IMG/VR virus record: IMGVR_UViG_3300047551_001470
Span: 1-31,771 of that record
Reading direction: 5' to 3' (one strand)
Source: a virus
Length of the DNA stretch: 31,771 nucleotides
Within the stretch, counting starts at the first letter, position 1. Each line of letters begins with the position of its first letter. A program made the translations under genes and the position numbers. Of the stretch, positions 12,583-31,771 are shown one piece after another. Below the pieces are notes generated by a model that was given only the letters and a program-made list of their open reading frames with translations, searched no databases and was not told where the DNA came from.

Positions 12583-12612
12583 TCGGACACGGAGTCCGAG
12601 CAAGGAGACCAC
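12583..12612 (+). promoter_or_regulatory. Leader hairpin with ACGGA loop before the ribosome binding site
   Basis: TCGGAC (12583-12588) and GTCCGA (12594-12599) form a perfect 6-bp stem with loop ACGGA. Four bases later comes GGAGACCAC and the ATG at 12613. A GGA-containing loop on a short stem, next to a Shine-Dalgarno AAGGA, is the classic dual-site layout for CsrA repression. A further TCCGAT at 12553 pairs with ATCGGA at 12582, so this could also be a DNA operator. Confidence 0.5.
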
Positions 12613-13506
12613 ATGTCACAGAATATCGTACTCGCATCGTCTGCGAGTGAATCGTCCGCTCTTTCGTTGGCTCAGGCTGGTACGAAAGCGCTTGAGGCTT
12701 ACATTGCAGCAGGCGACATCGGTCGCCTCGATCCGTCGCAGCGTATCTCGCTGTACAAGGCGGTCTGTGAGTCTCTCGGGCTGAATCCTTTGACCCAGCC
12801 GTTTGAATACCTCACGCTCAACGGCAAGGTACAGCTCTACGCGAAGAAATCCTGCACCGAGCAGCTTCGCCAGATTCACGGCGTTTCTGTTCTCGCGCTC
12901 GAGCAGGAGATCCGCGGCGACATCCTCTGTATGACTGCTCGAGTTCGCGATCGGTCTGGCCGCGAGGACATCGCGACTGGTGCGGTCAATCTCAAGGGTT
13001 TGGGCGGAGAGGCGCTCGCCAACGCCTACATGAAGTGCGAGACAAAGTCCAAGCGCCGAGCGACGCTTTCTATCTGTGGGTTGGCCGTGCTCGACGAAAC
13101 CGAGGTCGATTCAATTCAGGGAGCCAAGCCGGTTTCGGTCGAGGAGTTCCACCGATCAGAGCAGGTCGCGCCAAGTCCCGTCAAATCCCGCGAGGAGCGC
13201 CGCAGAGACACCGAGGAACTTCTTTCGCCTGTCCCGCAGTCTGAGCGCTCGAAGGCCGTGGAGGCCATTCCTGCGGCCCTAGACATCATCACGATCGACG
13301 CAGATGCAGCGATTGCCACTCTCGAGAACAAGCGCGGCCGCGTCTGGCGGGTGGATCAGAAGGGATGCGATAAGCCGTTCGCGATTCTCGACGAGCGGGT
13401 GGCATCTGGCCTCGAGGCGAATCAGGCGTTCGGTCTGGCATCGCGTGTCCGAATCGAGACAGTCGGATCGAAGTCCATCATCGTTGAGATCTTGGAGGAT
13501 CAATGA
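12613..13506 (+). CDS. RecT/Redbeta-like single-strand annealing protein (probable)
   Basis: The start is ATG 12613 with AAGGAG; the frame is open upstream to 12424, but that stretch looks non-coding. Length 297 aa. Residues about 45-170 carry the pattern of a phage recombination family: LYKAVCESLGLNPLTQPFEY, LNGKVQLYAKKSCTEQL, a GREDIATGAVNL strand, and the helix LANAYMKCETKSKRRATLS followed by ICGLAVLDETEV. The Lys/Arg-rich helix with a conserved Thr-Lys-x-Lys-Arg core is what is seen in RecT-type annealing proteins. Residues 180-240 form a charged linker, and 245-297 a small C-terminal domain (GRVWRVDQKGCDKPFAIL) that might bind a partner. It would pair single strands during recombination-dependent replication. 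The family assignment is from motif memory. Confidence 0.62.
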   Translation: MSQNIVLASSASESSALSLAQAGTKALEAYIAAGDIGRLDPSQRISLYKAVCESLGLNPLTQPFEYLTLNGKVQLYAKKSCTEQLRQIHGVSVLALEQEIRGDILCMTARVRDRSGREDIATGAVNLKGLGGEALANAYMKCETKSKRRATLSICGLAVLDETEVDSIQGAKPVSVEEFHRSEQVAPSPVKSREERRRDTEELLSPVPQSERSKAVEAIPAALDIITIDADAAIATLENKRGRVWRVDQKGCDKPFAILDERVASGLEANQAFGLASRVRIETVGSKSIIVEILEDQ

Positions 13507-15409: not shown

Positions 15410-15631
15410 ATGGAACTCACATCACAAGAAATCGATTCCGCGATTGTGCAGATCAACGCGCGCGTCCGCGAGCCGTACCGATGCGCTTATGGAGACTTCC
15501 CTTGGCTCGACGCGACGAACTTGGATAGTTGGATTCAAGCGCTTGAGCAGGATGGTGAGGTCGAAATCCAAGCGTTCTACACGCGCTCTGGACGAACGGA
15601 GCGCGTTCGCCGCCCAGGAGGTTCGCGATGA
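15410..15631 (+). CDS. Hypothetical small protein
   Basis: This 73-aa protein is translated from a GGAGAC site preceded by leader hairpin copy 2. It has an N-terminal helix (TSQEIDSAIVQINARV), an aromatic middle (YRCAYGDFPWLD, DSWIQALEQDGEVEIQAFY) and a basic end. No family is recognised. It overlaps the lysozyme gene by 4 bp (ATGA), so the two are co-translated. Confidence 0.7.
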   Translation: MELTSQEIDSAIVQINARVREPYRCAYGDFPWLDATNLDSWIQALEQDGEVEIQAFYTRSGRTERVRRPGGSR

Positions 15632-16029
15632 CGCTCCTCCTCATCCTTTCTCTCGTACCGCCGCCGGCCGCGCTCGACACTCGACCGATCCTTGATGCGA
15701 TTCGCGTCGTCGAGACCGGAGCTGAATCTGATCCCGACCATGCCATCGGCGACGGCGGAGACGCACTTGGCGCGTACCAGATCCATCGCTCGTACTGGCT
15801 CGATGCCACCGAGAAAGACCCTGCGCTCCGAGCGCTTGGATACGAGTCGGTGACAGATCGCTCCGTCGCCGAGCGCGTTGTCATCGCGTACCTCACTCGC
15901 TACGCGCCACGATGGGATCTCGACACCGTCTCGCGAATCCACAACGGAGGACCGAAAGGCCACACCAAGAACAGCACCAAAGGCTACGCGGCGAAAGTCG
16001 CGAAGGCCGCGAAGGAGGCACGACAATGA
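15628..16029 (+). CDS. Endolysin: lysozyme / transglycosylase-like protein with signal sequence
   Basis: This 133-aa protein would cleave peptidoglycan. The N-terminus (MTLLLILSLVPPPAALD) is a short hydrophobic export signal. The core shows a lysozyme-like pattern: AIRVVETGAE with the probable catalytic Glu at 29, GDGGDALGAYQIHRSYW (41-57), and RIHNGGPKGH (103-112) followed by TKGYAAKVAKA. These are features of small transglycosylase/muramidase families in which a GDGG..GxYQI block follows the Glu. A signal sequence means the enzyme could leave the cytoplasm without a holin (signal-arrest-release or Sec export). It lies far from the holin and spanin genes at 22877-23618. Confidence 0.75.
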   Translation: MTLLLILSLVPPPAALDTRPILDAIRVVETGAESDPDHAIGDGGDALGAYQIHRSYWLDATEKDPALRALGYESVTDRSVAERVVIAYLTRYAPRWDLDTVSRIHNGGPKGHTKNSTKGYAAKVAKAAKEARQ

Positions 16030-16319
16030 GAGAGGACAATCGAACCGAAGGCGACATCTGGATCAGGCTCGAGCGCGACGACCTCGAGGTCGGCAAGGAG
16101 GCAGTCGACTTGATCGCGTGGGTCGAGGGACTTTCGCTCGGAAGCGAGAACGAGCCGACCGTGACGTTCCTCGCGCACAAGGTCGGCGAGGAACTCGGGT
16201 CGAGTGAGAACATCTGGAACATCTCGGTCAAGCGGCTTCGCGCTCTCTGCGACGCAGCAGAGGCCATGCACAAGGTCGGCGTCCAGCAGTTCGACGCGCA
16301 CGAAGGGAGCGTCAAGTGA
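16026..16319 (+). CDS. Hypothetical acidic helical protein
   Basis: The start is taken at ATG 16026 (ATGA overlap with the lysozyme gene), giving 97 aa; the upstream extension lies in the lysozyme gene. It is acidic and mostly helical (VGKEAVDLIAWVEGLSL, PTVTFLAHKVGEEL, VKRLRALCDAAEAMHKV). No domain is recognised. It is coupled to the Gp157 gene by a GTGA overlap. Confidence 0.68.
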   Translation: MREDNRTEGDIWIRLERDDLEVGKEAVDLIAWVEGLSLGSENEPTVTFLAHKVGEELGSSENIWNISVKRLRALCDAAEAMHKVGVQQFDAHEGSVK

Positions 16320-16840
16320 ACCAGACGCTCTACAACATCGCGGACGATCTCCGCGCACTCGAAGCGATTCTCGTCGAGGCTGGCGGCGACATCTCCTCAC
16401 CAGAGGCGCTTGCCGCAGTCGAGGCGTGGGAAGTCGAACTCGAAACGAATCTCGGCTCGAAGATCGACAACTACTGCGCTCTCATCTCGGAGATCGAGGC
16501 ACGATCATCGGCCCGAAAGGCCGAGGCCGATCGGCTCGCCGATCTCGCTCGCGTCGACGAGAACGCGGCGAAGGCACTTCGCGAGCGGCTCAAATTCGTC
16601 TTCGAGTCGCGCTCGCTGCCGACGATGCAAACCGAGCGCTTTCGCGTCTCTCTGGCGCGAAACGGCGGCAAGGCTCCGCTCGACATCCGCGTCGGGCCAG
16701 ATGAACTCCCCGCATGGGCCGTCAAACGGAAGACCGTCGTCGAGACGGACAAGGACGCGATTCGCGCTCGGCTTGAGGCTGGAGAGTCGCTCCCATTCGC
16801 AAACCTTATGGAGCGAGGCTCGCGCCTCGTCATCAAGTGA
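16316..16840 (+). CDS. Siphovirus Gp157-like protein
   Basis: GTG start at 16316 (GTGA overlap); 174 aa. The pattern is that of the Gp157 family: LYNIADDLRALEAILVEAGGD at the N-terminus, a long coiled helix (KIDNYCALISEIEARSSARKAEADRL), then LKFVFESRSLPTMQTERFRVSLARNGG, and a C-terminal DELPAWAVKRKTVVETDKDAIRARLEAGE. Gp157 was linked to phage resistance in Streptococcus thermophilus phages, and family members lie beside recombination or replication genes. Length and motifs are normal for the family. This is one of the most certain calls in the early block. Confidence 0.82.
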   Translation: MNQTLYNIADDLRALEAILVEAGGDISSPEALAAVEAWEVELETNLGSKIDNYCALISEIEARSSARKAEADRLADLARVDENAAKALRERLKFVFESRSLPTMQTERFRVSLARNGGKAPLDIRVGPDELPAWAVKRKTVVETDKDAIRARLEAGESLPFANLMERGSRLVIK

Positions 16841-17133
16841 ATCGAGATCACCACGCACACACGGCCATGATGCGAGCCAAGCGCAAGGAGCGAGCGGCGA
16901 TCGTCAAAGTCAATCGCAGGAAATATCTCTCAAAATGCGTCGCTCGAGGCATTGAATCGATTCTTCAGCGCATCACAGCAGAGACCGAGGATGAATTTCA
17001 CGCGACGAAATGGCTTCGCGACATGCTGAGTGATAGGATGTTGAAGCTGTCCGCGCAGGATGCGCCGTCTCCGCAGCGCTCCGAGGGAGGAGAGAGCCAG
17101 TCTCTCTCCTCTCTTGGGGAGGAGGCCCGATGA
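16837..17133 (+). CDS. Hypothetical basic protein
   Basis: GTG start at 16837 (GTGA overlap); 98 aa. The first 45 residues are strongly basic and helical (MMRAKRKERAAIVKVNRRKYLSK), which could bind nucleic acid. A middle helix follows (TEDEFHATKWLRDMLSDRML). The last 25 residues are low complexity and coincide with a 10-bp inverted repeat in the DNA. No family is recognised. It overlaps the CsrA-like gene by 4 bp. Confidence 0.65.
   Translation: MNRDHHAHTAMMRAKRKERAAIVKVNRRKYLSKCVARGIESILQRITAETEDEFHATKWLRDMLSDRMLKLSAQDAPSPQRSEGGESQSLSSLGEEAR
17087..17111 (+). promoter_or_regulatory. 10-bp hairpin just upstream of the CsrA-like gene
   Basis: GAGGAGAGAG (17087-17096) pairs perfectly with CTCTCTCCTC (17102-17111) around CCAGT. 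It ends 18 bases before ATG 17130 and lies in the coding end of the upstream gene. The CTCTCC arm could instead pair with the GGGGAGGAGG site of the CsrA-like gene, so this may be a switch controlling that start. Confidence 0.45.
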
Positions 17134-17330
17134 AGCCACAACGAAATCCACGTCGAGGTCGGCTGATTCGCGAGATGAAGGCCGACGAAGCAGACCGTAT
17201 CTACATCGAGCGAGACGGTGTCACGCTCGGATCGGTGCGAGTGATCGAAATCAACAATACCGACTGTCGAATCGCGTTCGAGTTCGATCGCGATATTCGC
17301 ATCGCACGGAAGGAGGCGGAGTCATGCTAG
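17130..17330 (+). CDS. CsrA-like RNA-binding protein (probable)
   Basis: This 66-aa protein has a strong GGAGGAGG site and an ATGA overlap. Residues 23-62 align with the CsrA core: DRIYIERDGVTLGSVRVIEI, then CRIAFEFDRDIRIARKE. Arg47 and Arg60 are 13 residues apart, exactly like R31 and R44 of E. coli CsrA, the latter being the key RNA-contact Arg in the VHREE motif. Five short strands are predicted. The N-terminus differs: it has a basic 16-residue lead (PQRNPRRGRLIREMK) instead of the LILTRRVGE start. CsrA dimers bind GGA in hairpin loops near ribosome binding sites, and such sites exist here (12583-12612, 1200-1215). The homology is judged by eye and needs a profile test. Confidence 0.5.
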   Translation: MKPQRNPRRGRLIREMKADEADRIYIERDGVTLGSVRVIEINNTDCRIAFEFDRDIRIARKEAESC

Positions 17331-31426: not shown

Positions 31427-31771
31427 ATGAAGACGATGAATCTCGATCAGTTCAAGGCCGCGCTCGATCGCGCCGCCAAGATCAAAGGCGCTGAAGGCGT
31501 CGCGCACCAGAAGAAGTTGATTCTCGAAGGCTACATGGTCACCGATGCAGAAGGCATGATGGTCGACCCTGAGAGCCTCGACGTCGTCATTAAGGCCGCC
31601 GCGCCTGAGACTGACGCGATGAAGGAAGAAGATAAGGAAGAGATGACCAAGAGCATCCGTCGCGAAGTCGCTTCGCGTCTGGATTCGATGCCTCGCGGTC
31701 TCTCGGTCGTTGGCAACGTCGATGAGAAGCCTTGGGAAAAGGTCGCGACCTACTCGAACAAGGTCAAGAGC
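31427..31771 (+). CDS. Major capsid protein, N-terminal part (continues at base 2)
   Basis: This is the true start of the capsid gene. ATG 31427 lies 10 bases after GGAG, and the frame runs through 31619, the ATG equal to base 35. The first 64 residues (MKTMNLDQFKAALDRAAKIK..., then KKLILEGYMVTDAEGMM) are helical and form the delta/scaffold region. Adding 388 residues from the left end gives about 452 aa. The gap 31347-31426 holds no gene; GTGGATGT and ACACGGAG there lie close to the start and resemble CsrA-type GGA sites. Confidence 0.92.
   Translation, partial: MKTMNLDQFKAALDRAAKIKGAEGVAHQKKLILEGYMVTDAEGMMVDPESLDVVIKAAAPETDAMKEEDKEEMTKSIRREVASRLDSMPRGLSVVGNVDEKPWEKVATYSNKVKS
31585..31771. 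repeat. Right copy of the terminal repeat (circular closure)
   Basis: It equals bases 1-187 apart from five third-codon-position changes near its end, all silent in the capsid frame. See the left copy. Joining the ends at this repeat rebuilds one complete genome. Confidence 0.9.

Follow-up and report, generated by a model that had tools for sequence, protein, structure and literature searches.

A divergent CsrA-like gene of uncultured phages and a conserved structured RNA leader within the gene that precedes it

The locus and its gene family

The window, by which we mean the whole stretch of DNA analysed (31,771 nucleotides), corresponds to positions 1–31,771 of one virus record, IMGVR_UViG_3300047551_001470, and has no near DNA-level match in the annotated phage collection. 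Its two ends (positions 1–187 and 31585–31771) repeat each other imperfectly over 187 bases, with 5 mismatches, inside the likely major capsid gene. The record likely represents a genome that is nearly complete and either circular or permuted. A tyrosine integrase was found neither here nor in 13 related records; the lytic lifestyle assumed in an initial sequence-only reading of the window is unproven. A Destabilase (i-type lysozyme) domain is encoded at 15628–16029 of this phage, probably as part of its endolysin. Three consecutive genes are central to this analysis:

16316–16840, plus strand: Siphovirus Gp157 / Mu Gam-like gene, a conserved neighbour
16837–17133, plus strand: upstream gene of 98 amino acids with no known family; the RNA element described below lies in its 3′ end, and its stop codon and the start codon of the next gene share the sequence ATGA
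17130–17330, plus strand: CsrA-like gene of 66 amino acids with an ATG start; predicted strands at residues 9–16, 22–28, 31–38, 46–53 and 56–59, with Arg60 aligned to CsrA Arg44

The last of these open reading frames was singled out by the sequence-only reading, and its substitution pattern shows that purifying selection acts on it and that the gene is genuine. Third codon positions account for 17 of the 20 nucleotide differences from a 95%-identical homolog (IMGVR_UViG_3300046009_006217), with only 3 amino acid changes; the start has a strong Shine-Dalgarno (SD) sequence and the ATGA overlap. The proposal that it belongs to an early operon is plausible from its Gp157/Gam-like, RusA-like and exonuclease-like neighbours.

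A terminase search yielded 80 related contigs, and the family was extended by iterated HMM searches and by means of the conserved neighbour Gp157. Related uncultured phages encode at least 20 distinct relatives of the window protein at this position of the operon, with identities to it (for the relatives in alignment A1) of 24–95%. Core members share the gene order Gp157, small upstream gene, CsrA-like gene, and the small-gene stop overlaps the CsrA-like start as ATGA in all 21 members checked. Searches of annotated phage proteins yielded no relative of the window protein and no relevant one of the bridging family member L124 (one chance match), and searches of PHROGs and PDB sequences with the window protein returned nothing useful. 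Four relatives (L009, L011, L014 and L016) carry a C-terminal CxxC...CxxC extension, so that, as at L011:1698–1964, a CsrA-like domain is followed by two CxxC pairs, which likely form a zinc ribbon. Two short CsrA-like ORFs (L132:949–1167 and L136:1–168; Pfam CsrA E 0.004 and 0.0095) lie about 3 kb or less from Gp157 in more distant phages and are not accompanied by the leader element.

A conserved leader RNA within the upstream gene

The 3′ tail of the upstream gene contains an RNA element with the following parts:

17053–17065, plus strand: small hairpin GCGC-AGGAU-GCGC with a 4-bp stem and GGA in the loop, a candidate high-affinity CsrA-type site; the stem is exchanged among relatives
17067–17072, plus strand: GUCUCC, an anti-SD segment; predicted pairing with GGAGGC of the SD amounts to about 0.65 per base
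17079–17119, plus strand: long hairpin of 18 pairs (including 3 G-U) with a 5-nt loop; its pairing is conserved, its sequence is not
17116–17125, plus strand: strong SD GGGGAGGAGG with GGA motifs, the predicted partner of GUCUCC

The same order is present in the 90 nt 5′ of the start codon in every core member: the small hairpin, GUCUCC, the long hairpin and GGAG repeats ending in the SD. The loop of the small hairpin, positioned about 70–86 nt 5′ of the start codon, reads A(G/C)GA(C/U) across core members, with ACGA instead of AGGA in several lineages, and its GCGC/GCGC stem is swapped for CCGC/GCGG among relatives. GUCUCC is present in every core member; relative to the codons of the upstream gene, it occurs in all three frames. 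It is predicted to pair with the SD (in the window and several relatives) or with an upstream GGAGAC copy (in others); the SD itself is predicted to be paired in the window and in L002, L037, L028, L049, L053, L076 and L124. The long hairpin varies from 9 to 18 bp, and almost every lineage has its own sequence there. We considered whether the motifs might be conserved for the protein that they encode and rejected this, as the small hairpin and GUCUCC are read in different codon frames by lineage, which implies that selection acts on the RNA. The element is absent from the most distant members (L079, L118 and L139), and a search of Rfam gave no family match for the leader, only a chance match to mir-14 (21.5 bits against a cut-off of 53). 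Two close relatives, L037 (3300034356_001519) and L053 (3300042691_013374), have exchanged long hairpins, TGGGAGGGAGCA/TGCTCCCTCCCA versus TGGGGGAGGGCC/GGCTCTCCCCCA.

Because MAFFT did not align the long hairpin, we placed its arms in register by counting outward from the loop and inserted artificial spacer letters to keep them there. In 11 distinct sequences 98.5% of the inner-helix cells are paired, a value inflated by the fact that the hairpins were chosen for pairing. Two-sided changes occur at 12 of 12 pairs, and the covariation score was reached by none of 500 shuffles. Sliding the register by one column lowers pairing to about 50% (36–54% in slid controls). Independent support comes from the position of the hairpin, since hairpins of at least 10 bp occur only about once per 1–4 kb in these sequences.

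In the loci and scan matches covered here, the RNA element, with its covarying helix, is linked exclusively to this gene family, in one operon slot and next to the ATGA overlap. Across 1.36 Mb of related virus loci, the full architecture including the loop hairpin was found only 5′ of the CsrA-like gene. When viral contigs were scanned blindly for just the short sequence motif, at least 80 loci matched; among the matches listed, 7 combine the motif with a long hairpin and GGAG, and all 7 precede a CsrA-like gene, including a previously unseen relative (L331) with the same ATGA overlap. Just 1 of the other 73 loci among these matches precedes such a gene.

Relationship of the protein to CsrA

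When the window protein was compared with Pfam (24,736 families, E ≤ 10), CsrA (PF02599) was the sole match (19.5 bits, E 9.9e-4), with a score below the family cut-off of 27 bits; MCE/MlaD (PF02470) was not found in this search. Residues 35–63 align with profile positions 19–47; the two lengths are equal, so the alignment is ungapped and places Arg60 on CsrA Arg44 and Arg47 on position 31. Arg44 of CsrA is essential for RNA binding. The sequence-only reading had drawn attention to these two arginines 13 residues apart and to one of them as the RNA-contact residue, and the profile alignment supports Arg60 in that putative role; an Arg occupies this position in 17 of the 19 rows of alignment A1. 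Leu4 and Arg6 of CsrA strand 1 are absent from the window protein, which has an Arg near position 4 instead. The Arg6-Arg/Lys7 pair is kept in L124 and in the zinc-ribbon clade, which thus retains the Arg6-type residue of CsrA.

Each family member scanned singly, L124 included, also scored below the Pfam cut-off. A profile of the non-zinc members finds L124 at E 8e-13, and L124 in turn matches Pfam CsrA over profile positions 3–47, nearly the full length (19.6 bits, E 8.8e-4), as well as TIGR00202 (E 2.8e-3); its search against PDB sequences at E ≤ 10 returned RsmF and RsmN only (E about 0.4). A CsrA scoring above the Pfam cut-off (29.7 bits) is encoded at L095:1474–1686, on a contig of a Rhodobacteraceae MAG, where it directly adjoins homologs of the window genes 12610–13503 and 16316–16840 (56% and 37% identity). 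The contig probably stems from a phage and ended up in the MAG through binning.

The AlphaFold2 models of the window protein (pLDDT 77) and L124 (pLDDT 84), compared in strand order only, both contain five strands in CsrA order, in agreement with the predicted strand pattern noted previously. Neither model has a predicted C-terminal helix, and the C-terminal residues are of low confidence. No CsrA chain was listed in PDB fold searches with the window model; since one chain modelled alone says little about a swapped dimer, we do not take this result as a refutation. For the L124 model the top Foldseek match was RsmN (probability 0.96, TM 0.58, 24% identity, with a weak E of 0.4), and VIA-align gave RsmF a Z of 3.6 (rmsd 2.9, 45 aligned, 31% identity), tied with unrelated folds. 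L124 and RsmN/RsmF of Pseudomonas aeruginosa (PDB 4kji, 4krw, 4k59) are also similar at the N-terminus (GFLILSRREGEGITL versus GCVVLVRKEGERVSL), whereas RsmN has a longer insertion between strands; this structural match belongs to L124 and not to the window protein. In comparison with CsrA/RsmA generally, the family shares the length (about 60–70 amino acids), the order of five predicted strands and the Arg at position 44, but differs in having DGxxLG between strands 2 and 3.

A different assignment, as a small beta protein unrelated to CsrA whose middle part resembles MCE/MlaD or a generic beta hairpin, draws on profile comparisons. In hhalign the main family gave 48–55% for MCE versus 4–8% for CsrA, although the MCE match is partial (about 35–37 columns), and the CsrA profile used was narrow (gammaproteobacterial and phage sequences), so that its score is probably too low. 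TIGR00996 (MCE) matches three family members, with a best E of 2.9e-4, and the failure of the window model to find CsrA in the PDB points the same way. A full MCE domain has about 80 positions. For the zinc-ribbon clade and L124 the hhalign MCE match vanishes, and both match CsrA all the way from the first strand to the fifth. The length, strand number, Arg44 and RNA leader also agree with CsrA, whereas they do not suit an MCE ring protein anchored in a membrane, and we regard this assignment as unlikely.

Overall, the earlier CsrA identification is partly supported. The sole Pfam match, Arg44, the strand order, the bridge through L124 and the CsrA of the related cluster on L095 argue for it; the sub-threshold Pfam score and the lack of Leu4 count against it, together with the MCE matches (weak, yet the main counter-evidence), the window model without a CsrA match and the missing Arg6. 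Because of these last three observations we call the protein CsrA-like, that is, a very divergent relative or a look-alike, without counting it as an established CsrA member.

A candidate autoregulatory circuit and its alternatives

In E. coli, CsrA represses glgC by gripping an upstream GGA loop and bridging to the SD with one dimer; csrA represses its own translation, CsrA repression via translational coupling is known, and hairpins selected by CsrA in SELEX mostly have four or fewer pairs (PMC7652899). The phage leader resembles that of glgC in having GGA in a hairpin loop just 5′ and a second GGA at the SD. It differs in the long variable hairpin and the anti-SD segment inserted between the two sites and in lying wholly within an upstream coding region, 5′ of the regulator's own gene. 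Since it holds the parts with CsrA precedent in the same order, we infer autorepression coupled to the upstream gene: the explanation that we favour, and judge to be rather probable, is that the CsrA-like phage protein binds RNA and, in the manner known from glgC, represses translation of its own message. The small protein would act mainly on phage messages, its own first. The mRNA leader would present the A(G/C)GA loop together with an SD able to pair with GUCUCC across the strong hairpin, and a dimer would bind the loop and bridge to the GGA of the SD. Translation would be shut off once enough protein had been made, and ribosomes reaching the end of the upstream gene would melt the structure and reinitiate at the ATGA overlap. 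The CsrA-fold dimer, its RNA binding, the leader as its target and repression as the direction of control are all steps that we infer. The ACGA loop of several lineages does not sit easily with this scheme, as a strict GGA binder would not accept it, and neither do the low Pfam score, the MCE profile matches, the lack of a CsrA fold match for the window model and the lack of a predicted C-terminal helix.

The RNA structure could be real and yet serve solely as a coupling device that hides the SD until upstream ribosomes melt it, with a protein that does not bind. The ATGA overlap in all 21 members checked and the predicted pairing of the SD in the window and seven relatives fit this well, but it leaves unexplained why the A(G/C)GA-loop hairpin is separately conserved across reading frames and why the full element is seen (in the 1.36 Mb of loci and the scan matches listed) only 5′ of a CsrA-like gene; we hold it to be doubtful, if a little less so than the MCE-like assignment. 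A protein aimed mainly at the host, replacing or blocking host CsrA and redirecting carbon use or motility, is harder still to credit. CsrA homologs occur in 85 annotated phage records and, according to one catalogue, in 30 of 2517 phages searched by PSI-BLAST from E. coli CsrA (PMC7366521), and host effects can be imagined. The CsrA genes listed from the annotated records (Pseudomonas and Vibrio phages included) are 57–100% identical to E. coli CsrA. The window protein, however, is far from any host-type CsrA, and the sole CsrA-type RNA element found in the same loci and listed matches is the phage's own leader. For the takeover of host carbon or motility control suggested earlier we thus have no evidence, and the other half of that suggestion, action on the phage's own messages, is the better supported one because of the conserved leader 5′ of the gene. 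It is very improbable that the hairpin stimulates a −1 ribosomal frameshift fusing the upstream gene to the CsrA-like frame: in 12 of 12 members tested that frame runs without a stop for at least 26 codons upstream, but in most of them the third frame is comparably free of stops (13–83 codons), the hairpin is not preceded by a conserved slippery heptamer, and a good SD and start are conserved. Just as hard to believe is that the repeat acts as DNA, for example as an origin or as a site of recombination or packaging. The inverted repeats, perfect or nearly so and unrelated in sequence, would suit such a role, but the helix mismatches are mostly G-T on the sense strand (G-U in the RNA, 9 versus 2 C-A, the latter at the outer end of the helix), the distance to one start codon is nearly fixed, and the repeat is linked to the loop hairpin and the anti-SD segment.

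On the autorepression reading, the locus may represent a self-contained phage post-transcriptional circuit, in which a CsrA-like branch (with one clade fused to a zinc ribbon) co-evolved with a cis-acting RNA switch in the preceding gene, the loop specificity being altered from AGGA to ACGA in some lineages; we put this forward tentatively, as a proposition slightly nearer to doubt than to acceptance. Phage CsrA is already known; the divergent CsrA-like clade and its folded leader RNA, the latter previously undescribed, were not found in the annotated phage collection, Rfam or the literature searched (which covered few subscription journals), and the accessible part of the phage CsrA catalogue (PMC7366521) contained no leader RNA. 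The leader constitutes a structured RNA class absent from Rfam. Its conservation points to a concrete first target of the protein, the phage's own message, so that a single protein and a short RNA suffice to test the function. The natural pairs of RNA and protein variants (loops with AGGA or ACGA, Arg6 present or missing, zinc ribbon present or absent) would show how the CsrA-type RNA code drifts.
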